A stretch of 64,000 nucleotides of DNA from Candidatus Phycosocius bacilliformis. Its GTDB lineage: Bacteria > Pseudomonadota > Alphaproteobacteria > Caulobacterales > Aquidulcibacteraceae. Positions 11,975 through 25,399 of the stretch are shown here, piece after piece; position 1 is the first letter of the stretch; each line of letters begins with the position of its first letter. A program made the position numbers and the translations under genes. The DNA lies in assembly GCF_003112735.1 (NCBI RefSeq), contig NZ_BFBR01000004.1, positions 1 to 64,000 of the forward strand. Reading direction: 5' to 3'. Under the pieces are notes generated by a model. It saw only the letters and a program-made list of their open reading frames with translations. It searched no databases and had not been told where the DNA came from.

Positions 11975-13042
11975 TCAGACAGCGCCCGTCCACATCACAT
12001 CATCGATGCGGCGGGCGCCACTGGCTAGCATCACCAAGCGATCAAAACCCAAAGCAACGCCACTGGCCGGTGGCATATGGTCCAGCGCACTCAGAAAATC
12101 CTCATCCAGAGGATAGCGTTGCCCATAAAGGCGTTCCTTCAAATCCATATCCGCTTCGAATCGCGCGCGCTGTTCCGCACTGTCGGTTAATTCACCAAAA
12201 CCATTGGCCAGTTCCACCCCGCAGACATAAAGCTCAAACCGTTCAGCCAGGCGGGGATCCTTCGGGCTGCGTCGGGCCAGAGCCGCCTCACATGCGGGGT
12301 AGCTATGCAGGATGGTCGGGGCATCAAATCCCAGCTTGGGCTCAATCAGACTGACCAAGACTTTGGAGAACAAATCCGACCAGCTGTCATCAGGGTCAGT
12401 TGAGACACCCGCTGCACGGGCAGCCGCCGCCAGCATGGCGCAATCACCGTTGCCCGCATGATCAAGCGTCGCCATCAAATCAATCCCGGCGAACTGGTCG
12501 AAGGCTTCTGCCAAACTGAGATAGCGGGGCTCTGCCGAGGCAGACACCTGATGGCCTCGCCACGTCAGGACGTCGGTAGGGATTGAAGCTGCTGCACGTC
12601 GAACCAAGCTCAAGCAATCCCCGATCACGACCTGCCAATCCGCCCCGGCACGATACCATTCCAGCATGGTGAACTCGGTCGCATGCAAGGGGCCAGCCTC
12701 GCGATTGCGAAACACGCGCGCAAAGTCAAAAATACGCGTCTCGCCCGCCGCCAGTAGTTTCTTGCAGGCAAATTCGGGACTGGTATGCAGATAAAGTGGC
12801 GTGGCACTGGCCCCATCCGGGGTCAGACGAGCTGTGGCCAGACCATGAAGATGGGTCTCATTTCCGGGCGAGACCTGCAATTGGCCGGCCTCAACCTCAC
12901 AAAAATCCTGCGCCTCAAACCAAGCGCGCAAAGACTTCTTGATGCGATTGCGCGCCATCAGAAATGGTTTGCGGTCCTGATGGCGATCAGGATGCCACCA
13001 AGGTCTGGCTTCATTGCCTGTGAGGGGCAGGTTTTGACTCAT
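11975..13042 (-). CDS. epmA: EF-P lysine lysyltransferase EpmA
   Basis: 355 residues, the length of a lysyl-tRNA synthetase paralogue without the anticodon-binding domain. Class II synthetase motifs are visible: SPEFACKKLLAAGETRIFDFARVFRN (motif 2 region), HATEFTMLEWYRAGADW and GVALGFDRLVMLASG (motif 3). EpmA attaches beta-lysine to a conserved lysine of elongation factor P, which is encoded divergently at 13154. The ATG has GGGTGA six bases upstream. No epmB (lysine 2,3-aminomutase) is seen here, so it must lie elsewhere or the modification differs. Confidence 0.93.
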   Translation of the reverse strand: MSQNLPLTGNEARPWWHPDRHQDRKPFLMARNRIKKSLRAWFEAQDFCEVEAGQLQVSPGNETHLHGLATARLTPDGASATPLYLHTSPEFACKKLLAAGETRIFDFARVFRNREAGPLHATEFTMLEWYRAGADWQVVIGDCLSLVRRAAASIPTDVLTWRGHQVSASAEPRYLSLAEAFDQFAGIDLMATLDHAGNGDCAMLAAAARAAGVSTDPDDSWSDLFSKVLVSLIEPKLGFDAPTILHSYPACEAALARRSPKDPRLAERFELYVCGVELANGFGELTDSAEQRARFEADMDLKERLYGQRYPLDEDFLSALDHMPPASGVALGFDRLVMLASGARRIDDVMWTGAV

Positions 13043-13153: not shown

Positions 13154-13726
13154 ATGGTCAAAGTCATCGCGTCGAGCCTCCGCAAAGGCAATGTGGTCGA
13201 GCATACCGACGGCAAACTCTATGTCATTCTGACGACCCAAAACATCCATCCCGGCAAAGGCACCCCTGTGACACAGGTTGAAATGCGCCGCATCACCGAT
13301 GGGATCAAGGCAACAGAGCGCTTCAAGACCACCGATTCGGTCGAAAAGGCCTTCGTTGAGGAAATGAAGTTCAATTACCTCTATGATGATGGCACGTCTT
13401 ATGTGTTCATGAACCCCGACAATTTCGAACAGGTGCTGGTGCCTCACGCCGTGCTGGGCGATGATGCGGCCTATCTGCAGGAAAACATGGAAGTCTATTT
13501 GACCATATTCAACGAAACCCCACTGGCCGCGGTACTGCCAACGCGGGTGACCTTGGAAATTGTCGATACAGAGCCGACTGTGAAAGGGCAAACCGCCTCG
13601 TCGTCCTACAAGCCTGCGATGTTATCGAACGGCGTGCGCACCATGGTGCCGCCCTATATTTCGACCGGTACACGGATCGTTGTGCTGACTGAAGATGGCT
13701 CTTACGTCGAGCGCGCAAAGGACTAA
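13154..13726 (+). CDS. efp: Translation elongation factor P
   Basis: 190 residues, full length with the three beta-barrel domains of EF-P. The modification loop reads NIHPGKGTP, with Lys35 (counting Met) the residue expected to receive beta-lysine. The C-terminal [20 protein letters not shown] is the usual end. EF-P relieves ribosomes stalled at consecutive prolines. It is divergent from epmA across a 111-bp gap that should carry both promoters. A protein with 26 prolines in a row is encoded at 37928-40273. Confidence 0.97.
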
Positions 13727-13762
13727 GCTGATCGGTAGAAACTGAGTGGGGAGCGTTGGACG

Positions 13763-15523
13763 ATGCGCCAGATTTTGATTTCGGGTTTGGCGTTGGTGCT
13801 GGCGGCCTGCGCATCCGCGCCCGCGGGTCTGCAAGGTCCCACTCAAAACAAAGCCAATCAAGCAGCACACACGCCTGAGGCCAAGCCTGCCGGGGTCTGG
13901 CAGCATGGCGGCATGATTGCCGCGGCCAATCCGCTGGCCGTTGAAGCGGGGCTGGAAGTCCTCCGCGCAGGCGGCTCCGCCGTTGATGCGGCCATTGCGG
14001 TCCAAACGGCGCTGGGTCTTGTCGAACCCCAATCAAGCGGGATCGGCGGGGGTGCCTTCATGCTGCATTACGACGCCCAGACCGGCGACGTCACCGCTTA
14101 TGATGGGCGCGAAGTAGCGCCAGCCGGGGCAACTGACCGCCTGTTTCTGGATGAAGCGGGTGCTCCTCTGCCGTTTTGGACGGCTGTGAAGTCCGGGCGT
14201 TCACAGGGCGTCCCCGGTGCCATCGCCATGCTGCATCTGGCTTGGCAGGAACATGGCAAGTTGCCATGGGGCCGCAGCTTCCAGCCCGCCATCAAGCTGG
14301 CCAGTGACGGGTTTAAGATTTCCCCTCGCCTCAATACCGTTGCCACACAGCTCAAGCGCTTTACCGAGCCCAGTCCTGATGTGGTCGCCTATTTGATGGA
14401 TGCTTCGGGCAACCCACTGCCGGCAGGGACTTTGCTGAAAAATCAGCCCTATGCTGACACCTTAAACGCCATTGCAACCCAAGGCCCCAAAGCCTTTTAT
14501 GAAGGCCCGATTGCGCGCGATATCGTCGCCCGCTCGGGACAGGCCCCGATGCCGGGTACCTTATCGCTGGCCGATCTTAAAGCCTATAAGCCTGCCAAGC
14601 TTGAACCCATCTGCCGATCCTACCGCGAGCGCAAAGTCTGCGGCATGGGCCCGCCCTCCTCCGGCGGGATTGGTGTCATGGCGACATTGGGCATTCTTGA
14701 GAATTTCGACATGGCCGCAACTGGCCCTCAAAGCGCACTGGGCTGGCATCGTTTCATCGAAGCACAGCGCCTGGCCTATGTCGACCGCGACACCTATGTC
14801 GCCGATGATCGCTATGTGGCCGTGCCGATCGCGGGCCTGCTGGATGCGACTTACCTCAAGAGCCGCGCCGCCCTGATCTCAGACACCAGCACCATGGCAA
14901 AAGTTGAGCCGGGTGAACCACCGGGCGCAGTCAAGCGGGGTCGCGACGCAACCGGCAATGTGTTTGGCACCAGTCATTTTGTGATTGTGGATAATCGCGG
15001 CAATGTGGTTTCCATGACCACCACAGTGGAAAGCCTGTTTGGATCCCAACGCATGGTCCGCGGCTTCTTCCTCAATAATCAGCTGACCGATTTCTCCTTC
15101 GCCAATGTCGACGCCAAGGGTGAGCCGATTGCCAATGCCCCGGCTGCGGGCAAAAAGCCGCGTTCCAGCATGGCACCGACCATTGTGTTCGATAAGGATG
15201 GACATTTTGAACTCGCTGTCGGGTCTCCAGGCGGAAATGCCATCATTGCCTATGTCACCAAGGCGATGATTGGGATGCTGGATTGGAATCTGTCACCGCA
15301 GGAAGCTGTGGCCCTACCCAATATCATCGCCCGTACAAGTCCTGTGGCGCTCGACCGGTCCCGTGCTAGCCCGGAATTGATCCAGGGCCTTGAAGCGCTG
15401 GGCCAGAAGTTTCGCGATGGTGGGGGGGCAGAGGGTTCAGGCCTGCATGTTATCCGCCTGACCCCGCAAGGCCTTGTCGGCGGTGCCGATCCGCGCCGTG
15501 AAGGCGTTGCCCGCCAACCCTAA
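13763..15523 (+). CDS. ggt: Gamma-glutamyltransferase, lipoprotein type
   Basis: 586 residues. The N-terminus carries a lipobox (LVLAACAS), so the mature protein is probably lipid-anchored in the periplasm. The large subunit begins near AANPLAVEAGLEVLRAGGSAVDAAIA and contains SSGIGGGAFMLHYDA. The self-cleavage site precedes Thr403 in FGTSHFVIVD, which becomes the catalytic N-terminal threonine of the small subunit; KPRSSMAPTIVF and GSPGGNAI are also family motifs. It hydrolyses or transfers gamma-glutamyl groups, chiefly of glutathione. GGGGAG precedes the ATG. The SDR gene follows after 31 bp. Confidence 0.93.
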   Translation: MRQILISGLALVLAACASAPAGLQGPTQNKANQAAHTPEAKPAGVWQHGGMIAAANPLAVEAGLEVLRAGGSAVDAAIAVQTALGLVEPQSSGIGGGAFMLHYDAQTGDVTAYDGREVAPAGATDRLFLDEAGAPLPFWTAVKSGRSQGVPGAIAMLHLAWQEHGKLPWGRSFQPAIKLASDGFKISPRLNTVATQLKRFTEPSPDVVAYLMDASGNPLPAGTLLKNQPYADTLNAIATQGPKAFYEGPIARDIVARSGQAPMPGTLSLADLKAYKPAKLEPICRSYRERKVCGMGPPSSGGIGVMATLGILENFDMAATGPQSALGWHRFIEAQRLAYVDRDTYVADDRYVAVPIAGLLDATYLKSRAALISDTSTMAKVEPGEPPGAVKRGRDATGNVFGTSHFVIVDNRGNVVSMTTTVESLFGSQRMVRGFFLNNQLTDFSFANVDAKGEPIANAPAAGKKPRSSMAPTIVFDKDGHFELAVGSPGGNAIIAYVTKAMIGMLDWNLSPQEAVALPNIIARTSPVALDRSRASPELIQGLEALGQKFRDGGGAEGSGLHVIRLTPQGLVGGADPRREGVARQP

Positions 15524-15526
15524 ACA

Positions 15527-15538
15527 GCGGACGTCCGC
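15527..15538. other. 12-bp palindrome between ggt and SDR
   Basis: GCGGACGTCCGC is perfectly self-complementary and lies just after the ggt stop. There is no T-run. It may be an mRNA hairpin or a protein site. Confidence 0.3.
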
Positions 15539-15554
15539 GTCTGGAGACTGCATC

Positions 15555-16334
15555 ATGTTGGAAAATCTGTTCTCATTGAAGGGCCGTGTGGCTCTGGTCA
15601 CGGGCGGCTCCAAAGGTATTGGCCGCATGATTGCCGAAGGCTTTCTGGCTCAAGGCGCCAAAGTCTATATCACCGCCCGCAAAGCAGATCAGTGCGAGGC
15701 GGCAGCCGCCGAATTGTCGAAGGGCGGGGGCCAATGCATCGCCTTGCCCGGCGACATTTCGACACTCGATGGGGTCAAGGCCCTCGCGGAAACCATCATG
15801 GCGCGCGAGGCTAAGCTCGATATTCTGGTCAATAATGCCGGAACCTTGTGGATGGCCCCGCTGGATGTCTACCCTGAAAAGGGATGGGACAAAGTGATGG
15901 ACCTCAATGTCAAAAGCCCATTCTTCTTGATCCAGGCTTTATTGGAACCGCTGAAGGCCGCAGCGCGACCTGACCAGCCGGCCAAGATCATCAATATCAC
16001 CTCGATTGATGGCATCACCGTCAATAAAGTCGATACCTTCGCTTATCAGGCCAGCAAGGCAGCCTTTGCCCATCTTACCAAGCGGCTGGCCGCCGATCTG
16101 ATCGGCCATAATGTCGTGGTCTCCGCGCTGGCACCGGGCGCATTTGCTTCTGACCTTAATGTCTATGCCCGAGATCACGCGGAGATGGTTGCCGCCGCGA
16201 TCCCAGCCAAACGGATTGGCACGCTGGAAGACATGGCCGGCACCGCGATTTATCTGGCGTCACGCGCGGGCGATTATATGGTGGGTGAAGCCGTGGTGAT
16301 CGATGGCGGCTTGACGGCCATCGGGCGGGGTTAG
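15555..16334 (+). CDS. Short-chain dehydrogenase/reductase (SDR)
   Basis: 259 residues. Classical SDR motifs: TGGSKGIGRMIAEGFL for NAD(P), LVNNAGTLW, the catalytic set NITSIDGI / AYQASKAAFAHLTK (Ser, Tyr, Lys) and the C-terminal VIDGGLTAIGRG. The ATG at 15555 has GGAG at a good distance; the open frame reaches further back but overlaps ggt. Resembles general 3-oxoacyl or gluconate-type oxidoreductases; the substrate is not determinable. Probably cotranscribed with ggt, convergent with rlmN. Confidence 0.88.
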   Translation: MLENLFSLKGRVALVTGGSKGIGRMIAEGFLAQGAKVYITARKADQCEAAAAELSKGGGQCIALPGDISTLDGVKALAETIMAREAKLDILVNNAGTLWMAPLDVYPEKGWDKVMDLNVKSPFFLIQALLEPLKAAARPDQPAKIINITSIDGITVNKVDTFAYQASKAAFAHLTKRLAADLIGHNVVVSALAPGAFASDLNVYARDHAEMVAAAIPAKRIGTLEDMAGTAIYLASRAGDYMVGEAVVIDGGLTAIGRG

Positions 16335-16343
16335 GTCAAGGCC

Positions 16344-17543
16344 TCAGGTCGGGGTATCCGCGGCAGCCAGTCGCTCCTTCAAGGCGACACTGGCCCGTGT
16401 CTTGACGCTTTCACTGCGCAACTGGCCACACGCAGCCAGAATATCGCGTCCGCGTGGCGTGCGGATAGGGGCTGAATAACCTGCCCGGTTAACAATATCG
16501 GCAAAGGCATGGATTGTTTTCCAGTCCGAGCACTCATACGCCGTTCCGGGCCAGGGATTAAACGGGATCAGATTGACCTTGGCCGGGACCCCCGCCAACA
16601 GCTTAACCAGCGCACGCGCCTCTGACGGGCTGTCATTGACGCCTTTCAACATGACATATTCGAACGTCACACGCTTGGCATTATTGAGCCCGGGATAGGC
16701 CTTAATGGCCGCCATCAGTTCGGCCAATGGATATTTCTTATTGAGCGGGACCAGAACATCGCGCAAGGCGTCATTGGTCGCATGCAGACTAATCGCCAGC
16801 ATGGCCCCCGTCCGATTGCCCAATTCCTCAATCTTCGGCACCACGCCTGATGTCGACACCGTGATCCGCCGCCGCCCGATGGAGATACCCTCCCCGTCGC
16901 TGATCAGATCAATCGCCTTGGCGACTTCATCGAGATTATAGAGCGGCTCACCCATGCCCATAAACACGATGTTGGTCAGAGCCCTTCCATCGGTGGTCGA
17001 GGGCCATTCATCCAAATCATCGCGGGCAATCATGACTTGGGCGACAATTTCCGCAGCCGTCAGATTACGGACCAGTTTCTGCGTACCTGTGTGGCAAAAG
17101 GTGCAGGTCAAGGTACAACCCACTTGACTTGACACACAAAGAGCCCCTGAGCGGGCGACGTCTGGGATGAAAACCGTCTCAAACTCCACACCCGGTGCTG
17201 AGCGTATCAACCATTTGCGGGTGCCGTCGGCAGACACCAAGCGTTCAATGACTTCGGGTCGGTCAAGTGTGTGATGGACCTCCAACAGGGCGCGCAAATC
17301 CTTGCCAATATCGGTCATCACCCCAAAATCACGCGCACCGAAGAAATAAACCCAGCGCCAAATCTGTTGCGCGCGCATTTTGGCCTTTTTGGGTTCCACG
17401 CCCAAAGCCAGAACAGCCTCCCGCATCTCATCCAGCGTTAGGCCAACCAGCGAGGTACGCGCAGGCGCTGTCTCTGGCGCAACAGTCGCAGGAGAGTCAG
17501 CGGCAGCAGCGCGCCGATGGGAAAGATCAAGGGTGACGGTCAT
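16344..17543 (-). CDS. rlmN: Dual-specificity 23S rRNA/tRNA (adenine C2) methyltransferase RlmN
   Basis: 399 residues. The radical-SAM cluster motif CxxxCxxC is present in [15 protein letters not shown], with the RlmN/Cfr family Cys near the C-terminus ([11 protein letters not shown]). The N-terminal helical domain includes [21 protein letters not shown]. It methylates C2 of A2503 in 23S rRNA and of A37 in some tRNAs. Single gene, divergent from the phosphonate-type transporter. Confidence 0.96.
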
Positions 17544-17615
17544 GGCGGCCCCATAGCATGTAAATTCGCTCCCGTCAGCGCCCCAATCCGCCGGGTACCA
17601 ACGGCTGCACGTCCA

Positions 17616-17633
17616 CTGTCACAGAACAGTCAT
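17616..17633 (+). promoter_or_regulatory. Candidate Pho box (PhoB site)
   Basis: The 18-bp element reads CTGTCAC-agaa-CAGTCAT, two 7-bp direct half-sites with a 4-bp spacer. By hand it agrees with the usual CTGTCAT-N4-CTGTCAT pattern at all but a few positions. It lies 67 bp upstream of the PhnC-PhnD start. Supports induction in phosphate starvation. Confidence 0.6.
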
Positions 17634-17700
17634 ACAGTGGCCGCGTGACTCTGGCGTCAAACACGCTAAACAGGCGGCTCAAGATCGTTTGTGGGGAAAA

Positions 17701-19593
17701 ATGACGATTCCTGTTCTTGAGGCCAAAGGGCTGTTTCGAACCTATGGTGCCCGCAAGGCACTCAATGACGTATCTATAACAGTCCAGCCCGGCGAAATGG
17801 TGGCCCTGATTGGGCCGTCTGGCTCGGGCAAGTCGACCCTGTTACGCAATGCAACCGGCCTCATCACCACCGATGAAGGGACTGGTAGTGTCAAGCTTCT
17901 GGGCATTGATGTGCAGAAAGACGGCAAGCTGGCCGACTCGGTGCGTCAGGCCCGTGCCCGCGTCGGTTTCGTGTTCCAACAATTCAATCTTGTCGGCCGA
18001 TTAAGCCTCTTCCAAAATGTGATGCTGGGCGCTTTGGGCCGCCTACCCTTCCTTCAAGGCTTCTTGGGCCAATGGCCTGAAGCGGATCAGAACCGCGCGA
18101 TGCAAGCCCTCGCCCGGGTTGGAGTTGCAGATTATGCCGCCCAACGCGCCAATACGCTGTCAGGTGGCCAGCAGCAGCGCGGTGCCATTGCCCGCGCGCT
18201 GGTGCAAGGAGCTGAGGCGATCTTCTTGGATGAGCCAGTAGCCTCGCTTGACCCGGTCTCGGCGCGCAAAGTGATGGAATTGCTGCGCGACCTCAATCAG
18301 CGCGACAATGTTACCGTTATCGTCACGCTTCACCAGATCGACTATGCGACCAAATTCTGCGACCGCATTGTCGCGCTCAAAGCGGGGCAAATTGTCTATG
18401 ATGGCCCAAAGGATGGATTGACGCGCGATCGGTTGATCGAAATCTATGGCGCGGAATTCGATGAAGAAACCGGCGATGCTGCTCCCAAGGAGGAGCCTGT
18501 CCCTGAAGCCGCAGGCCGCTCTGGCCAGACAATCTGGGAGAAGGCACTCCAATGGGCCTTGGTTCTTGCCATGGTCGTGGGCGGGGGATTTGCCTTGTGG
18601 CAACAGGCCAAGCCCCGCGAGACTGCCGATGTGATCTTCTCGATTCTCGCCACCGAAAACAGCCAGAATTTGGGTGAACGCTGGAAGCCCTTATTGGCCG
18701 ATATGGAAAAGCAGACCGGGCTCAAGATCAAACCCTATTTCCAAACAGGCTATGCGCCTTTGGTCACCGCCATGCAGTTCGGCCAGACCCAAGTGGGGTG
18801 GTTCTCAAACAAGCCTGGTTGGGAAGTGGTGAGTACGGGTAAGGCAGAAGTCTTCCTGCGCTCATCAGATCCGTCAGGCATTGATGGGTATAATTCGGTC
18901 GTGATCGTCAATAAGAACTCGCCTTTGACCATCGAGGACCTGTTGACATGTGATCGCAGCCGCGACTTCGGCATGGGGGATGCTAGCTCAACCTCGGGCA
19001 CATTGGCACCGATGACCTATCTGTTCGCCCCACGCAACATTAACCCGTCCAATTGTTTCAAGACTGTGCGCTCGGCCAATCATGAGGCCAATGTACGTTC
19101 AGTTGCGGCAGGTCTTTTGGAGGCGGCAACCAATAATTCCACCTCGCTGCAGGTTTTGGGGGCCCAAGACCCTGAGCTGATCAAGAAAGTGAAAGTGATC
19201 TGGACGTCACCAACCTTGCCCGAAGACCCAATCATCTGGCGCAAGGACCTCGACCCGGTGAAGAAACAGAAGATCCGCGCCTTCTTCCTTAATTACGGTC
19301 GCCAGGGCGATAAAGCCCAACAGGATCGTGAGCGCGCCATTCTGGCCTCGTTGAGCTTCGGGCTGTTCCAGCCTGCCAACAATGATCATTTGCTGCCGGT
19401 CCGGCAAATGCAAGCGACCGAAGACCTGATGAAAGCCCAGCAAACTGGCGATGTAGGTAAGATTGATGCGGCCAAAAAGGCCTTTGATGCCATCCAACTA
19501 GAAGCCGAGCAGGCCAAAGCGCGCGCTGTGCCGCCTCTGCCCAGCACGCCGACCGAAGGCTATGCGATTGAAGGAAAGGCGGTCAAAAAATGA
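17701..19593 (+). CDS. PhnC-PhnD fusion: phosphonate/phosphate-type ABC ATPase joined to binding protein
   Basis: 630 residues in one uninterrupted frame. Residues 1-255 are a complete ABC ATPase of the PhnC type: Walker A GPSGSGKST (38-46), signature LSGGQQQR (153-160), Walker B IFLDEP (174-179) and H-loop His211. An acidic, Pro-rich linker leads to one hydrophobic membrane segment at about 282-300. Residues about 305-590 form a PhnD-like binding domain (VIFSILATEN, PLVTAMQFGQTQVGWFSN, FGMGDASSTSGTLAPMTYLF). The predicted topology is ATPase in the cytosol and binding domain in the periplasm, tethered without a signal peptide. The ATG at 17701 follows GGGGAAAA. It overlaps phnE by 4 bp. Substrate among phosphonate, phosphite or phosphate not settled. 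Confidence 0.9.
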   Translation: MTIPVLEAKGLFRTYGARKALNDVSITVQPGEMVALIGPSGSGKSTLLRNATGLITTDEGTGSVKLLGIDVQKDGKLADSVRQARARVGFVFQQFNLVGRLSLFQNVMLGALGRLPFLQGFLGQWPEADQNRAMQALARVGVADYAAQRANTLSGGQQQRGAIARALVQGAEAIFLDEPVASLDPVSARKVMELLRDLNQRDNVTVIVTLHQIDYATKFCDRIVALKAGQIVYDGPKDGLTRDRLIEIYGAEFDEETGDAAPKEEPVPEAAGRSGQTIWEKALQWALVLAMVVGGGFALWQQAKPRETADVIFSILATENSQNLGERWKPLLADMEKQTGLKIKPYFQTGYAPLVTAMQFGQTQVGWFSNKPGWEVVSTGKAEVFLRSSDPSGIDGYNSVVIVNKNSPLTIEDLLTCDRSRDFGMGDASSTSGTLAPMTYLFAPRNINPSNCFKTVRSANHEANVRSVAAGLLEAATNNSTSLQVLGAQDPELIKKVKVIWTSPTLPEDPIIWRKDLDPVKKQKIRAFFLNYGRQGDKAQQDRERAILASLSFGLFQPANNDHLLPVRQMQATEDLMKAQQTGDVGKIDAAKKAFDAIQLEAEQAKARAVPPLPSTPTEGYAIEGKAVKK

Positions 19594-20420
19594 GTGCGAC
19601 CCCGATGAAAGCCACCGGCAATCTCAATCTGGGTGCGGTGCCCGCCCCTCCAACCCGCTCAGCCGCCGACCGCTTGTATGACCTCCTCGTCTGGGGCGGG
19701 ATCATCTTATTGCTCGTGATCAGCTTCGGACCGGCCGAGATTTCCAAAGTCACGCTGTTGTTCACCAATTCGGAGAATATGCAGACCTTTACCACGCGCC
19801 TGATCAATCCTGACTTTTCCGAATGGCGGGTCTATGCGCGCGAAATGTGGTTGACTGTGCAGGTCGCCATCTGGGGGACCTGCCTCGCGGTTGTGATGGC
19901 GATCCCGTTTGGTTTCATGTGCGCATCCAACGTCGCGCCATCTTGGCTTGTTTGGCCGATGCGGCGGCTGATGGACTTCCTGCGGTCGGTCAATGAATTG
20001 GTGCTGGGGCTGATCTTCATTGTGGCTGTGGGCTTGGGCCCGCTTGCAGGGGTGCTCGCCATCGCGCTGCATACCGCCGGGGTCTTGGCCAAACTGTTCT
20101 CAGAAGCCGTTGAATCGATCGACAGCCGCCCGGTCGAAGGCGTTCGCGCCACGGGGGCCACCAAATTGCACGAGATCATGTGGGGTGTCTTGCCCCAAGT
20201 CGCACCTTTGTGGACCTCTTATGCGCTCTATCGATTTGAGTCCAACTCCCGCTCGGCGACCGTGTTGGGCCTGATTGGGGCTGGCGGCATTGGCATGAAG
20301 CTGATGGAAAGCATGAATAGCTTCCAATATGAAAAGACAGCCGCCATCGGCATCATCATCGTGATTGCCGTGACCTTGATCGACATGTTGAGCCAGGCGA
20401 TGCGGTCACGCCTGCTGTAG
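19590..20420 (+). CDS. phnE: Phosphonate-type ABC transporter permease PhnE
   Basis: 276 residues with about six membrane segments. The EAA loop that docks on the ATPase is visible: SEAVESIDSRPVEGVRATGATKLHEIMWGVLPQV, followed by the SRSATVLGLIGAGGIG motif typical of PhnE. Its ATG overlaps the stop of the ATPase/binding-protein fusion (ATGA), so the two genes give equal amounts of product and form a complete importer. A terminator follows at 20446. No C-P lyase or phosphonatase genes are adjacent, so phosphate or phosphite uptake is as likely as phosphonate uptake. Confidence 0.93.
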   Translation: MSATPMKATGNLNLGAVPAPPTRSAADRLYDLLVWGGIILLLVISFGPAEISKVTLLFTNSENMQTFTTRLINPDFSEWRVYAREMWLTVQVAIWGTCLAVVMAIPFGFMCASNVAPSWLVWPMRRLMDFLRSVNELVLGLIFIVAVGLGPLAGVLAIALHTAGVLAKLFSEAVESIDSRPVEGVRATGATKLHEIMWGVLPQVAPLWTSYALYRFESNSRSATVLGLIGAGGIGMKLMESMNSFQYEKTAAIGIIIVIAVTLIDMLSQAMRSRLL

Positions 20421-20445
20421 TTTGCAGCCTGTGCAGGAAAACGAC

Positions 20446-20476
20446 AAAGGCCTGGCGTGATCGCCAGGCCTTTTTT
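20446..20476 (+). terminator. Rho-independent terminator after phnE
   Basis: A 12-bp perfect stem (20446-20457 with 20462-20473), 4-nt loop, and a run of six T (20471-20476). It lies 26 bp after the phnE stop and also separates it from the convergent cheZ gene. Confidence 0.9.
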
Positions 20477-20496
20477 CTTTTCAGACGCTGTTTGGT

Positions 20497-21177
20497 TTAG
20501 CCGAACAGTTTATCAAGATCGGCTTGATCCATCGATTCACCGCCTTCAGAGCCGAACAAGGCGTCAATCTCGTCTTGGGCGACTTCAGGGCCGTTGAGCG
20601 CGGGACCGTTCAAGAGATTTTCCTTGCGGCGACGATCTTCCAACGTCTCTTCTAGTTCGGCATCTTCCACACCCATGACATTGGCAAAGCGCTCGAGGCG
20701 TTGCTCAATATGGGTCAATGTATCAACCACTTTCTTGATGCGCTGACCGGTGATGTCTTGGAAGGTGCAGGCCTCGAAAATCTCCATCATCTTCTCATTG
20801 ACCAACGCCTGATAGGCGTCTGGATCGCTGGTATCTGCAGCCATGACCTCTTCGGCCACCGCCATGATGGTGTTGGTGGCTTCGGCGGTATGTTGTACGA
20901 CGGCGTGGAGTTCTGCACCGGCTCCGGGGATGCGATCTTCGCTCAGGTCATTGGGGCGCAGATTGGAAATCTCAAGCCGTGTCCGCTGAATGTAGGAGGA
21001 GATGTAGCGCATCTCGTCAAACAGGCTTCGGTCGAGCGAACTGAAAAACATTTGCATGGCTTCGCTCATTTGCGAAGCCAAGTTCAAGACCTCACCAAGA
21101 CGGGGATCTTTAAGGTCAGCCCCTTTCAGCGCCGTGATGGCATCGCGAACTTTGTTAGCTACTTCTGGTGACGGCAT
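20497..21177 (-). CDS. cheZ: CheZ-family protein phosphatase
   Basis: 226 residues, almost wholly helical. The catalytic CheZ motif is clear in EACTFQDITGQRIKKVVDTL (Gln within QD..GQ acts on phospho-CheY). The C-terminus holds two short acidic repeats, DEIDALFG and ADLDKLFG, resembling the CheY-binding tail of enterobacterial CheZ. A GTG at 21183 is possible, but the ATG at 21177 has a GA-rich ribosome site at proper distance. It lies downstream of cheY in the same direction and should dephosphorylate that CheY to reset flagellar switching. Confidence 0.9.
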   Translation of the reverse strand: MPSPEVANKVRDAITALKGADLKDPRLGEVLNLASQMSEAMQMFFSSLDRSLFDEMRYISSYIQRTRLEISNLRPNDLSEDRIPGAGAELHAVVQHTAEATNTIMAVAEEVMAADTSDPDAYQALVNEKMMEIFEACTFQDITGQRIKKVVDTLTHIEQRLERFANVMGVEDAELEETLEDRRRKENLLNGPALNGPEVAQDEIDALFGSEGGESMDQADLDKLFG

Positions 21178-21221
21178 CGTCACACCCCCCTCTTGAAAAA
21201 CACAAACAGCGATCGGCAGGA

Positions 21222-21608
21222 TCAGAAGTCGCCCAGCACCGAGGCGATCTTGGCCTTCAACGTCTGGGCGTTGAATGGCTTTACGATATAGTTGTTCACG
21301 CCTGCTTTTTTGGCAGCGATGACGTTTTCAGTTTTTGATTCCGCCGTCACCATGATGAATGGTGTTGGCTTCAGGATTTCATCTGCGCGCACCTCGCGCA
21401 GCAGCTCATAACCTGTCATGGGTTCCATGTTCCAATCGGAAATGACCAGACCATATTTGGTTTTTTTCATCTTCTCGAGGGCCTCACGGCCGTCGGCCGC
21501 TTCATCAACATTCTCAAAACCAAGCTGTTTCAAGAGGTTGCGAATGATGCGCACCATCGTTTGATAATCATCGACGACTAACACTGGCGCGTTCAGATCC
21601 ACTGCCAT
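21222..21608 (-). CDS. cheY: Chemotaxis response regulator CheY
   Basis: 128 residues: a single receiver domain with no output domain. The acidic pocket Asp13-Asp14, phospho-acceptor Asp58 (SDWNMEPMTG), switch Thr88, Tyr107 and Lys110 (VKPF) are all present. AAGGAG precedes the ATG. It is the first gene of the cheY-cheZ pair. No kinase, receptor or methylation genes of a chemotaxis operon are nearby, so the signal must come from CheA encoded elsewhere. Confidence 0.95.
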   Translation of the reverse strand: MAVDLNAPVLVVDDYQTMVRIIRNLLKQLGFENVDEAADGREALEKMKKTKYGLVISDWNMEPMTGYELLREVRADEILKPTPFIMVTAESKTENVIAAKKAGVNNYIVKPFNAQTLKAKIASVLGDF

Positions 21609-21655
21609 ACAACTTCTCCTTCGGTGGCTTCGGCCACTCTCACCCCACGGTTAAA

Positions 21656-21677
21656 AGCCCTATATCAGTTGAGGGCT
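21656..21677. other. Inverted repeat between cheY and phaJ
   Basis: AGCCC (21656-21660) and GGGCT (21673-21677) flank an AT-rich 12-nt centre in the divergent promoter region. Short, possibly a regulatory dyad. Confidence 0.25.
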
Positions 21678-21714
21678 AAAGAAGCGTGAATCACGACCTA
21701 GACGAGGACATGCC

Positions 21715-22149
21715 ATGCCCAATGCCGCATCCGGCTTTTATTTCGAAGAACTCAGTATTGGTCAGGTTGCTGAATCAGCCCGGACTGTCACAGAAGCTGA
21801 CATCCTCATGTTTGGGGCAGCTTCAGGCGACATGAACCCAGTTCATTTCGATGCAGCATTTGCCGCTACCACACGGTTTGAGGAGCGCATTGCCCATGGG
21901 ATGCTGACCGCAAGCCATGTCTCTGCGCTCATTGGCATGCGTCTACCGGGGCCAGGATCGGTTTATGTCAGCCAGAGCTTGCAATTCAAGCGACCAGTCA
22001 AAATTGGCGCGACAGTCACCACGCGCGTCGAAGTTACAGCGCTCGATCCTGCCAAAGGCTTTGTCACCCTGTCGACAACCTGCCTCATCGCTGGCAAAGC
22101 GGTGTTGTCGGGTGAAGCAGTTGTCATGGTGGCCAAACGCGAGGGCTAA
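21715..22149 (+). CDS. MaoC-family (R)-specific enoyl-CoA hydratase, PhaJ-like
   Basis: 144 residues, a single hot-dog domain. The hydratase motif lies in DILMFGAASGDMNPVHFDAAFA (catalytic Asp and His), followed by RIAHGMLTASHVSALIGMRLPGPGSVY. PhaJ-type enzymes turn trans-2-enoyl-CoA into (R)-3-hydroxyacyl-CoA for polyhydroxyalkanoate synthesis; that role fits the PHB genes at 30.7-34.6 kb, though MaoC proteins have other roles. GAGGA precedes the ATG. Its stop overlaps the ribF start by one base. Confidence 0.85.
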   Translation: MPNAASGFYFEELSIGQVAESARTVTEADILMFGAASGDMNPVHFDAAFAATTRFEERIAHGMLTASHVSALIGMRLPGPGSVYVSQSLQFKRPVKIGATVTTRVEVTALDPAKGFVTLSTTCLIAGKAVLSGEAVVMVAKREG

Positions 22150-23084
22150 TGCAGAGTTTCAGTGCCAGGACAGAGGTGCCAGAACAGGCCCAAGGTGCCA
22201 CCATGGCCTTGGGTGCTTTTGACGGCTTGCATCTCGGCCATGTGGCGGTCTTGCGTGCCGCCCAGGAAGCAAGGCCTGACCGGCTGCTTGCGGTTGCGGC
22301 CTTCGAGCCTCCGCCCAAATGCTATTTTGCGGCACCAGAATCGCCCTCGTTTCGTCTGAACACACCCCGTCTCCGAGCTGAGCGGGCAGCCGATGTCGGC
22401 GCAGAATTCATGTTCGAAATCCCATTTGATGCTGCCATGGCCGGCATGGCGGCTGCCGATTTCATCCGTGACATTTTGGTTGGCCATCTTAAGCCCTGCC
22501 ATGTCACCGTTGGTCACGATTTCCGCTTTGGCTGCGACCGACGCGGCGATGGGGCAATGCTTCGTGCGATGGGGGAAGACCTTGGTTTCGGTGTCACCAT
22601 CGTTGAGCCGGTTCTCGATCATTCGGGTATACGTTATTCCTCGACCCGGGTGCGTGAGGCCCTTAAGGCCGGGCATCTTGCCATGGTCACCACCTTATTG
22701 GGTCGACCATGGCGGGTTGAAGGCATGGTGATCCATGGCGAAAAGCGCGGCCGAACCATCGGCTTTCCCACTGCCAATTTTCATCTTGAAGACCAACTTG
22801 CGCCACGCTTTGGCGTTTATGCGGTCCGGGTCAATGTGCTGGGAGACCCCAAATGGTATAGTGGGGTAGCCAATTTCGGGCGCACCCCCACGACAGGACT
22901 GCGACAGCCCTTGTTTGAGGTCAATTTGTTCGATTTTGAGGGCGATCTATACGGCAAGCGGCTGGAAGTTGGCCTGCATGCATTCCTGCGTCCTGAAATG
23001 AAATTCCCCAGCCTTGACGATTTAGTCTCCCAAATTGGCCGTGATGCCGACGAGGCCGCCCAGATTCTTTCTGTGGTGGCCTAG
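22149..23084 (+). CDS. ribF: Bifunctional riboflavin kinase/FAD synthetase
   Basis: 311 residues, the usual RibF length. The N-terminal FAD synthetase half has MALGAFDGLHLGHVAVL (nucleotidyltransferase HxGH-like motif) and SSTRVREALKAGHLAMVTTLLGRPW. The C-terminal kinase half has GMVIHGEKRGRTIGFPTANF and FEVNLFDFEGDLYGKRLEVGLHAFLRPEMKFPS. It makes FMN and FAD from riboflavin. Cotranscribed with the MaoC gene (1-bp overlap), convergent with the DUF971 gene. Confidence 0.97.
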   Translation: MQSFSARTEVPEQAQGATMALGAFDGLHLGHVAVLRAAQEARPDRLLAVAAFEPPPKCYFAAPESPSFRLNTPRLRAERAADVGAEFMFEIPFDAAMAGMAAADFIRDILVGHLKPCHVTVGHDFRFGCDRRGDGAMLRAMGEDLGFGVTIVEPVLDHSGIRYSSTRVREALKAGHLAMVTTLLGRPWRVEGMVIHGEKRGRTIGFPTANFHLEDQLAPRFGVYAVRVNVLGDPKWYSGVANFGRTPTTGLRQPLFEVNLFDFEGDLYGKRLEVGLHAFLRPEMKFPSLDDLVSQIGRDADEAAQILSVVA

Positions 23085-23090
23085 ACCGCC

Positions 23091-23456
23091 TCAGGTTTCG
23101 CCCACAGCACGGCGATAATCCGCCAAGAGACGATCCTGATCTCGACCCAGACGATAGAGCCAATCCCACGTAAAAATTCCGCTGTCGTGACCATCATCAA
23201 AGATGAGCCGAACCGCATAACGACCGACTGGTTCTGCCCGCAAAACGCCAACATCGCCTTTGCCGGCGACCCACTTCTTGCCAGCCGCAGAATGGCCTTG
23301 GACTTCTGCGGAGGGGCTTTCAACACGTAAAAGCTCATAGGGGATCTCGAACGTCATCCCATCGTCGAACCGGGCGCGCAAGGATTTGGCGCTGGCCTGA
23401 AACACCAGCTCAACCGGCCACGGGCGCGCGACAGTCTCAGCGTCCGTGTTAGGCAT
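23091..23456 (-). CDS. DUF971 (gamma-butyrobetaine hydroxylase-like N-terminal domain) protein
   Basis: 121 residues from the ATG at 23456. The domain is recognised by [39 protein letters not shown] and by [28 protein letters not shown]. Similar domains occur in proteins tied to Fe-S or apbC/Mrp functions, but the exact role of the free-standing form is unknown. The start overlaps the end of the Trm112-like gene by 8 bp; it is the last gene of a run also containing the LON-domain gene. Confidence 0.85.
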
Positions 23457-23661
23457 CGGAAATCTCTCGCGCTTCGCCCGCCAGCATAATCGGCACACCA
23501 TCACGGATCGGGTAGGCAAGACCGGCCGCTTTAGAGACCAATTCACCACGCGAACGGTCATAGGTCAAAGGGGTTCGCGAGACCGGACAAACGAGGATTT
23601 CCAGAAGACGCGGGTCAATCTCGCGGCCCTCCATTGCTGCAGTCTTGGGTGTTTCAGTCAT
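23449..23661 (-). CDS. Trm112-like family protein
   Basis: 70 residues. The signature [17 protein letters not shown], then [21 protein letters not shown], marks the Trm112/YcaR family, a small zinc-ribbon-like fold. Here only one Cys of the usual metal site is kept (CPVS), as in many bacterial members. In eukaryotes Trm112 activates methyltransferases; the bacterial role is uncertain. Overlaps both neighbours (ATGA with the LON gene). Confidence 0.88.
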
Positions 23662-24332
23662 TGCAGGGGTCTCTCCTCATCGTCGGCTTCTTCACCGCCG
23701 CGGCCTTGGTCCATGTTCAAGAGCGCGATCAACACGTCACGCCGGTCTTCGATTGTCGCGGCTTCCAGAAGAGCCTGCTTCTCAATGGGTGCGAATGGGC
23801 ACAAGGCCGAGAGGGCATTGACCAATGGCTCAGCCTGAGCCTGATCGATCGAGCCCCAGTCCGCATTCAGATTGTTGCGATCAAGATAGGCGCGTAACGC
23901 CTCAAGAAGGTTGGTTCGGTCAAAGCCGGCAAACGACCCTACAGGTTTAAGATCGTCGGCAAAGCTTTGCCAATCGGCCGTCACCTGGCGATAGGGTGTT
24001 GGAGCCCGATATTCGCGCGCCACCACAAAGCGGCATATGCCCGTCAAAGTGATCAGATAGCGCCCATCTTCGGTCTCCGTGAAAGAGGTCAGTTTACCCA
24101 CACAGCCGACCCGAGACAGGCCTGGTCGTTCGGGGTCGCCGGTACCATCTGGCTGGATCATGCCAATCAACCGATTTCCGGTCAGGGCATCATCAATCAT
24201 ATTGAGATATCGTGGCTCGAAAATGTTGAGGGGCAATTGCCCACGCGGAAACAAGAGCGCGCCCGTCAAGGGAAACACCGGAATGGTGGCGGGCAGATCG
24301 CCAGGCTTACGATAGACATAACCTGCTACCAT
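23658..24332 (-). CDS. LON peptidase substrate-binding domain protein
   Basis: 224 residues containing only the LON N-terminal domain: [35 protein letters not shown], then [15 protein letters not shown]. No AAA or protease part is present. Such stand-alone proteins are common in alphaproteobacteria and have no firm function; substrate binding or chaperone-like action is assumed. It lies 33 bp after the CnoX gene and overlaps the Trm112-like gene. Confidence 0.9.
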
Positions 24333-24365
24333 GACTTCATCTGCCTCGCTGCTTTTGGTCAGGCC

Positions 24366-25289
24366 TTAAGAAAACAGAATGGCCGACAATTTGCGCCGCC
24401 CTTGACGGGTAACCTCCGCGGTCGGGCCTGCAGCATCAAACAGCTTCAACAATTGCTTACGCGCCGCATCGTCCTGCCATGACCGGTCGGTTTTGATAAT
24501 GAACAACAAATGTTCAGCAGCGGTCTCGAAATCACCATTGGCGATTTCAGCTTTGGCAAGCTCAAACCGGGCCTCAAGATCATCGGGTGCTTCCGCTAAA
24601 GTGGCGTTCAAGACGGCGGCATCGCCAGCATGGGCAACATCATGGATCAAGTCGATTTGGGCCTGTACGCTGATCACATCAGGATCTTTCTGCTTGGCCT
24701 TGGGAATGCTGGCCAAAATCTCCTGTGCGCGATCAAGCTCGCCTCCCAACACATAAACGCGGGCAAGACCCGCCAAGGCCTTAGGGTTTTCAGGATCAAG
24801 GCCTGCCGCTTGGGCGAAGGATTGAGCCGCACCGCCCAAATCGCCCAGCTCGAGGCTTTCCTTGCCCGCCGCGACCAGCTCTTCCAACCCGGCCGGCTGT
24901 GCTCCGGCCAAGCGGTCCACTAAAGCTTTGATCTGGCTTTCAGGTTGTGCACCCATGAAACCGTCAACCGGGCGCCCCTTGTCAAAGGCAAATACGGCAG
25001 GGATGGATTGCACACGCAATTGCCCGGCGATGGCGGGATGCTCATCAATATTGATCTTGACCAGCTTTACCCTGCCATTGGCGGCTTTCACCACTTTTTC
25101 CAGCGTCGGCGTCAAAGTGCGGCAAGGCCCACACCAAGGGGCCCAGAAATCGACCAAGACCGGGGTCTCCATCGAGACATCGATGACGTCGGCCTTAAAG
25201 CTCTGGTCGCTGCCATCTTTGATCAAGCCAGTAGGGTCTGCGGTCGCACCGGTCTTAGGTTTTGACGCGCCTAAACCAATCAATGCCAT
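24366..25289 (-). CDS. Thioredoxin-fold co-chaperone CnoX (YbbN) family protein
   Basis: 307 residues from the ATG at 25289 (a TTG at 25337 would add 16 charged residues). The N-terminal thioredoxin domain has the active site WAPWCGPC followed by VQSIPAVFAFDKG (cis-Pro). The C-terminal half is helical with TPR-like repeats (SFAQAAGLDPENPKALAGLARVYVLGGELDRAQ). CnoX proteins protect substrates from oxidative aggregation and hand them to GroEL or DnaK. The CGPC here should be redox-active, unlike the E. coli form. First gene of the run down to DUF971. Confidence 0.9.
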   Translation of the reverse strand: MALIGLGASKPKTGATADPTGLIKDGSDQSFKADVIDVSMETPVLVDFWAPWCGPCRTLTPTLEKVVKAANGRVKLVKINIDEHPAIAGQLRVQSIPAVFAFDKGRPVDGFMGAQPESQIKALVDRLAGAQPAGLEELVAAGKESLELGDLGGAAQSFAQAAGLDPENPKALAGLARVYVLGGELDRAQEILASIPKAKQKDPDVISVQAQIDLIHDVAHAGDAAVLNATLAEAPDDLEARFELAKAEIANGDFETAAEHLLFIIKTDRSWQDDAARKQLLKLFDAAGPTAEVTRQGRRKLSAILFS

Positions 25290-25399
25290 GGCTGTGTTCG
25301 TGCCGGTGGCACGCTCCTCTTGATCGCGGTCTTTCAAAGACCAGTTTATGGGCTAGACATGGGCGCGCGCGGGTCTGGTTGCAAGGCAAAACATGCGTT

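Follow-up and report, generated by a model that had tools for sequence, protein, structure and literature searches.

In the first 64,000 nucleotides of contig NZ_BFBR01000004.1 of Candidatus Phycosocius bacilliformis (assembly GCF_003112735.1), a stretch which is called the window in the following, the ATPase PhnC and the substrate-binding protein PhnD are encoded as one protein. The fusion is genuine, is conserved among relatives, and represents an unusual form of the PhnCDE importer, with a function which we infer from sequence comparisons and a structure prediction. It is likely that the PhnC part is located in the cytoplasm, that a flexible linker leads to one N-in/C-out membrane helix, that the PhnD part resides in the periplasm, and that the protein together with the permease PhnE forms an importer for a phosphorus anion.

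The fusion gene lies on the forward strand (17701..19593, including the stop codon at 19591-19593) and is a single uninterrupted frame of 630 codons, which starts with an ATG at 17701 and spans 17701-19590; an alternative in-frame TTG at 17689 would yield a protein of 634 amino acids. Residues 6-250 (17716..18450) form the PhnC ATPase domain and pass the cut-off of the curated PhnC model TIGR02315 with 281.7 versus 266.1 bits. The narrower PhnC model NF007438 was missed by the protein (298.5 versus 365 bits). An acidic, proline-rich linker (residues 251-277, 18451..18531) is followed by a single membrane-type helix (residues 278-303, 18532..18609), which is indicated by hydropathy and by an AlphaFold model. 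In the PhnD substrate-binding domain (residues 309-575, 18625..19425), which has 3p7i as its top structural match, residues 313-563 match PF12974 with 210.9 bits at a cut-off of 27, and residues 288-532 pass the PhnD model TIGR01098 (203.1 versus 112.05 bits), while the score for the Escherichia coli-type model TIGR03431 stayed below its cut-off (205.1 versus 261.1 bits). The protein ends in a tail (residues 576-630, 19426..19590) with a helix at 585-608 and low confidence thereafter. The AlphaFold model, calculated from an alignment of 62 rows, had a mean predicted local distance difference test score (pLDDT) of 87.7 and yielded PhnC, a low-confidence stretch (pLDDT below 50 for residues 259-276), the helix 278-303, and PhnD. 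Its predicted template modelling score was 0.55, thus the mutual placement of PhnC and PhnD is not predicted by the model. An earlier note on this DNA had described a complete ATP-binding cassette (ABC) ATPase and a complete PhnD-type domain in one frame of 630 codons, joined by a linker and one membrane helix, and had recommended a look at residues 280-305; the open reading frame and the profile cut-offs agree with the former, and the predicted helix at 278-303 with the latter.

Matches to the PhnD part at an E value of 0.001 were found in 17 of the 60 genomes of the family f1, 15 of them strong (2.1e-130 or better). In all 15 genomes with a strong match, the genome of the window included, PhnC and PhnD are contained in one frame, which rejects a frameshift or an assembly error as the source of the fusion. 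The two outcomes which the earlier note had named as fatal to its proposal, a frameshift separating two genes and the lack of a fused homologue in relatives, were looked for and did not occur. The fused genomes are distributed over four of the 14 genera of f1 (eight of nine genomes in genus g1, the single genomes of g4 and g6, and all five of g7). A metagenome-assembled genome (MAG) assigned to the Hyphomonadaceae also carries the fusion, with a gene identical to that of one other fused genome (L051 and G021, respectively); the scan of named genomes comprised the best 80 of 586 confirmed stretches. The ratio of nonsynonymous to synonymous substitution rates (dN/dS) of the PhnC and PhnD domains was 0.01-0.06, with one pair at 0.13, indicating strong purifying selection. 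Within genus g1 the helix yielded values of 0.02-0.03. The linker starts at the end point of the free PhnC of sister taxa, and its acidic start is kept in all 15 fusions.

In the order (299 genomes) 97 genomes matched at 1e-30, namely 15 in f1, 23 in f4, and 59 in f3. Loci were read for all 23 f4 genomes and for 30 genomes of f3; in the remaining 29 f3 genomes the tabulated frames do not exceed 500 amino acids and are too short for either of the two types of fusion described here. The comparison was extended to a class sample of 385 genomes (85 matching at 1e-50) and a phylum sample of 398 genomes (50 matching at 1e-60), and among the loci examined from these samples no PhnC-PhnD fusion outside f1 was found. 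Altogether 29 of 264 loci contained a PhnC-PhnD frame, all belonging to genomes of f1 or to the MAG mentioned above, with several genomes repeated, and in one further locus (L265) PhnC and PhnD were unfused. Apparent fusions in the class and phylum samples, suggested by equal open-frame numbers for PhnC and PhnD rows, were rejected, since the loci which were read show two frames with a stop between them. The 25 matching plasmid records all had less than 60% identity, and the one unannotated case which was read (L264) was unfused. The search for proteins with an ATPase followed by PhnD which had been proposed in the earlier note thus found this domain order kept in 15 of the 15 f1 genomes with this PhnD and, apart from the matching MAG, in no other locus examined. 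This distribution also bears on the idea that a chance read-through created a fusion without consequence which drifts in one lineage. Loss of a stop codon would be easy, as 24 of the 62 outgroup loci holding both genes have phnC and phnD in the same frame, separated by one stop codon. Despite this easy route no fusion was seen outside f1 among the loci examined, the fusion is kept in four genera with both domains under purifying selection, and the linker is a conserved addition which goes beyond the mere loss of a stop, so that a fusion of no consequence is hardly credible.

Several features of the fused proteins concern the location of the PhnD part. The 19-residue hydropathy of the helix is 1.75 in the protein of the window and 1.17-2.16 in its relatives. 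A motif scan found neither an AxA signal peptidase motif nor a lipobox after the helix in any of the 15 fusions, in agreement with the claim of the earlier note that the protein lacks a cleavable signal peptide. The distance from the end of the helix to the first PhnD strand is 11-16 residues in the fusions, and that from the lipid cysteine to the same strand is 11-17 residues in 27 free PhnDs of f3; with these matching tether lengths the fused receptor would sit at about the height of the lipoprotein PhnD. Another finding was that a pair of cysteines in PhnD occurs almost exclusively together: in 133 distinct rows both are present in 79, neither in 53, and one alone in a single row. Both cysteines are present in all 15 fusions. 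The co-occurrence suggests that the pair forms a disulfide, which would favour a periplasmic PhnD, because disulfides form in the periplasm. The lack of a cleavage site and of a lipobox at the end of the helix, together with the kept cysteine pair, makes it most likely that PhnD resides in the periplasm and is permanently attached to the transporter. An internal restart of translation yielding a free PhnD was considered and rejected: the nearest in-frame starts are either residues 240 and 245, at the end of PhnC and followed by a long acidic segment, or residue 287 and later ones, inside the helix or behind it. One relative (L021) has a methionine before the helix.

A number of observations weigh against this picture of a tethered periplasmic receptor under phosphate control. 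The helix is only moderately hydrophobic (1.17-1.43) in seven genus members, its dN/dS between the window and relatives is 0.20-0.39 and ranges from 0.05 to 0.77 in g7, and the synonymous divergence of the linker is saturated in most pairs. The motif scan called AxA in two and a lipobox in two of the 15 fusions, all four inside the helix, and the disulfide rests on co-occurrence of cysteines and not on coordinates. A site resembling a Pho box, which is found upstream of the other fusions, was not found in the fused genera g4 and g6 (5 and 6 mismatches). Finally, the genome of the window contains a distant PF12974 match at C4 241367-241726, which with 33.2 bits is over the Pfam cut-off, and a second one below the cut-off at C1 162483-162695 (21.8 bits), which makes another receptor possible. 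Each of these distant matches has an ABC ATPase match no more than about 2 kb away. In favour of the tethered receptor, tblastn gave only a single match to this PhnD in the genome.

Some of these points could also be explained by a precursor which separates itself, with signal peptidase cutting the internal helix and freeing a soluble PhnD from PhnC. The helix is located at the position of the signal peptide of free PhnDs, the moderate hydrophobicity of some helices would suit a signal peptide, and the AxA matches in two of the fusions, although inside the helix, were found by pattern matching. However, 11 of the 15 fusions match neither AxA nor lipobox, whereas 54 of the 61 outgroup free PhnDs match AxA and the other seven look cleavable by eye, and within genus g1 the residues which follow the helix are charged and resemble each other. 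Cleavage of the helix is therefore considered unlikely.

An opposite placement of the PhnD part is suggested by the closest full-length architecture. NrtC combines an ATPase with a binding-protein-like domain behind it in a single chain, and CmpC shares this order. A structural search with Foldseek placed the PhnDs of E. coli and Pseudomonas first, with CmpC (9u9z_C) at rank 10 and NrtC (8wm7_C) at rank 21. According to PMC11349869 the fused binding-like domain at the C-terminus of CmpC is thought to be regulatory, and by analogy the PhnD part might be cytoplasmic, sense intracellular phosphorus, and regulate the ATPase. In NrtC and CmpC, however, the second domain is cytoplasmic and a separate binding protein exists, whereas here a predicted membrane helix separates the two domains and a search of the genome of the window yielded no further close PhnD. 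The cysteine pair is present in 15 of 15 fusions, and relatives hold the same PhnD outside by a lipid or an added helix. Such a cytoplasmic sensor thus appears very improbable. The claim of the earlier note that the architecture differs from ordinary binding-protein-dependent import, which has a separate soluble or lipid-anchored receptor, holds in so far as receptor and ATPase share a frame in all 15 cases; it is not wholly unprecedented, as NrtC and CmpC have a comparable order of domains, though with a cytoplasmic second domain.

The favoured alternative of a tethered periplasmic receptor would include the product of the next gene. As stated in the earlier note, phnE (19590..20420, forward strand) follows with an overlap of 4 bp, ATGA at 19590-19593, and its product passes the TIGR01097 cut-off with 300.5 versus 216.7 bits. 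Since importers usually contain two ATPases, two receptors per complex would result, and the assembly would be PhnE2-(PhnC-PhnD)2, in which both receptors are permanently attached and a free binding protein is not needed. The topology, the two receptors, the control by PhoB, and the uptake of a phosphorus anion are the steps which we infer. The tether of the fusion would stand in for the lipid anchor of the sister family f3, and would swap a free, excess receptor for a fixed ratio of 1:1 and a high local concentration.

Comparison with the order revealed that PhnD is tethered there in other ways, too. A PhnD-PhnE fusion with a separate PhnC was found in all 23 f4 loci (L131-L153) and in five f3 genomes (L154-L158). 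In a PhnD tree of 72 of the 134 rows, from which near-copies, most outgroup rows, and one fragment were left out, each type of fusion formed one clade, with support values of 100/99 for PhnC-PhnD of f1, 99/88 for PhnD-PhnE of f4, and 100/100 for PhnD-PhnE of f3. With separate genes outside these three clades, three independent fusions are needed to explain the tree. Free PhnDs of f3 have a lipobox in 26 of 27 rows and in both free copies beside a PhnD-PhnE gene, which corresponds to 27 of 28 distinct genes, as L039 and L159 are one gene. The f4 PhnD-PhnE fusions were scored as lipobox in 12, AxA in nine, and neither in two cases, with one of those scored as lipobox (L141) looking like AxA by eye; in f3 all five PhnD-PhnE fusions have AxA. 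Nearly all PhnDs read in the order are thus predicted to be membrane-attached through a lipid, through PhnC, or through PhnE, with the exception of the free PhnD of L062, which has AxA. In all 28 PhnD-PhnE fusions the first conserved PhnE motif is separated from PhnD by two hydrophobic segments, as compared to one segment before this motif in all 16 free PhnEs scored (two more lacked the motif and were unscored). With the extra segment PhnD would stay outside and PhnE would keep its orientation. In L156 (4133-7151) and L157 (3568-6568) a free lipoprotein PhnD is located beside a PhnD-PhnE fusion, and this arrangement may be an intermediate to the fusion-only state of L154, L155, and L158. Two loci (L161 and L168) contain f3 PhnD-like genes; neither PhnC nor PhnE was found in the sequence examined around them, and another PhnD is present elsewhere in the genome. 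A more far-reaching idea is that loading of the receptor acts on the joined ATPase via the helix, bypassing the permease, with the receptor having been captured at least three times by two different subunits; this is conceivable and at present rather doubtful.

With respect to the substrate, the best sequence and structural matches of the fused PhnD are PhnDs of the PhnCDE type. E. coli PhnD (3p7i) and Pseudomonas PA3383 (3n5l) belong to systems with the same three domains, the gene order C-D-E, and the same ligand residues; the fusion differs from them by the covalent attachment of PhnD to PhnC via a helix, by the lack of a cleavable signal, and by the replacement of E177 by threonine. Residues Y47, Y93, S127, T128, S129, and H157 do not vary among the 15 fusions. 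According to PMC5700983, E177 and D205 of E. coli PhnD accept the amino group of 2-aminoethylphosphonate. From the cap formed by D205, T14, and E177 the former two residues are kept in the fusions and E177 is lost, with threonine in all 15 fusions and glutamate in 52 of 60 outgroup rows. A receptor of the phosphite type was also considered and rejected, as its cap residues Y208 and D22 correspond to D205 and T14, which are kept as in E. coli PhnD.

The absence of phosphonate-degradation genes nearby, which had been mentioned in the earlier note, is true of the ten flanking proteins scanned (13154 to 25337), among which no phosphonate enzyme was found. The genome of the window has matches to PstC, PstA, and PhoU. 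It has no match to PhnG, PhnH, PhnI, or PhnJ at 1e-8, in a search which did not include PhnW, PhnYZ, PtxD, and HtxA, and none to PhnX or PhnA over the cut-off, with weaker matches to the PhnX family occurring in every genome searched. Such protein searches can miss divergent genes, as E. coli PstS matched only one (G093) among 38 genomes. Carbon-phosphorus lyase was found in five and PhnX in four of the 15 fused genomes, and neither in eight, two of which are 63% and 87% complete; carbon-phosphorus lyase or phosphonatase is thus encoded elsewhere in seven of 15. All five genomes with carbon-phosphorus lyase (L029-L033) have a second, distant PhnD 12-13 kb from phnJ, so that the lyase system probably has its own PhnD receptor. 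A PhnX gene is located about 8 kb from the fusion in G004 (contig C1, 140753-141502) and on another contig in G003, G017, and G018. In picocyanobacteria a PhnD without degradation genes has been proposed to be a phosphate importer (PMC10284923). The best guess for the substrate is phosphate or else a phosphonate lacking an amino group, thus other than 2-aminoethylphosphonate, with no preference given to either of the two.

Upstream of the fusion gene a Pho-box-like element, CTGTCACAGAACAGTCAT at 17616..17633 on the forward strand, has two mismatches to CTGTCAT-N4-CTGTCAT; no other site in the window has fewer than three. The window is not enriched for such sites at up to three mismatches (five found, 4.89 expected). 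The element had already been noticed in the earlier note, and its position is kept constant in the eight fused genomes of genus g1, with 2-3 mismatches. All five fused g7 genomes have a site with 3-4 mismatches, one of which, with four mismatches, was equalled by eight of 100 shuffled controls which preserved base content only. Altogether 13 of the 15 fused genomes have a site with 2-4 mismatches upstream of the fusion. The pattern CWGTCAYNNNNCWGTCAY, which was devised after the site was known, had one match in the whole genome, with none for the reversed control. In f4 loci the site has up to three mismatches in nine of 23, four in five, and more in nine. Only two of 30 f3 rows have a site with up to three mismatches (L042 with three, L062 with one), thus it is not general in f3. 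The best of these sites precedes phnC of L062, a Caulobacteraceae MAG with a free PhnD having AxA instead of a lipobox. Downstream of the Pho-like site the conserved block CGTGACTCT-N12-GCTAAACA (17644..17672, forward strand), read by eye, is likely to be the core promoter; it presumably resembles the housekeeping promoter of Caulobacter. A sigma-70 consensus scan yielded no site at 17644..17672. The block CGTGACTCT-N12-GCTAA is found in g1 and in four of the five g7 loci, with GTTAA in L024. Control of phnCD-phnE by PhoB is likely.

Behind phnE a terminator-like hairpin (20446..20473, forward strand) of 12 pairs is followed by a T-rich tail; it has the longest stem among four terminator-like sites found in the region, with 3.4 expected. 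Directly downstream of the phnCD-phnE operon, genes for CheZ and a CheY-like receiver (20497-21608) are located on the opposite strand. Farther upstream a lysyl-tRNA synthetase-like gene, EpmA-like by eye (11975-13042), is divergent from an elongation factor P gene (13154-13726).

Permanently attached receptors are known from other importers. GlnPQ and OpuA carry two or more per complex, and a local receptor concentration of about 4 mM is given for OpuA in PMC11065425. In these systems the receptor is attached to the permease and not to the ATPase, which brings them nearer to the PhnD-PhnE fusions of the related families. The lipoprotein PhnD of f3 (e.g. L036-L050) is an orthologous protein held at the membrane by a tether of similar length; it differs in being a separate protein with a predicted lipid anchor, which leaves its ratio to the transporter free. 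Among the open-access papers listed in literature searches, none was recognised as describing PhnC fused to PhnD or a receptor of the periplasm joined to an ATPase.

The tethering of one receptor in three ways within one order is a more interesting result than the fusion itself. It touches the general question of what makes some importers rely on a surplus of free receptors and others on attached ones. Orthologous receptors which appear to be attached to a lipid, to the ATPase, or to the permease, and which look soluble outside the order, would form a natural set for studying the effects of tethering on affinity, rate, and the scavenging of phosphorus.

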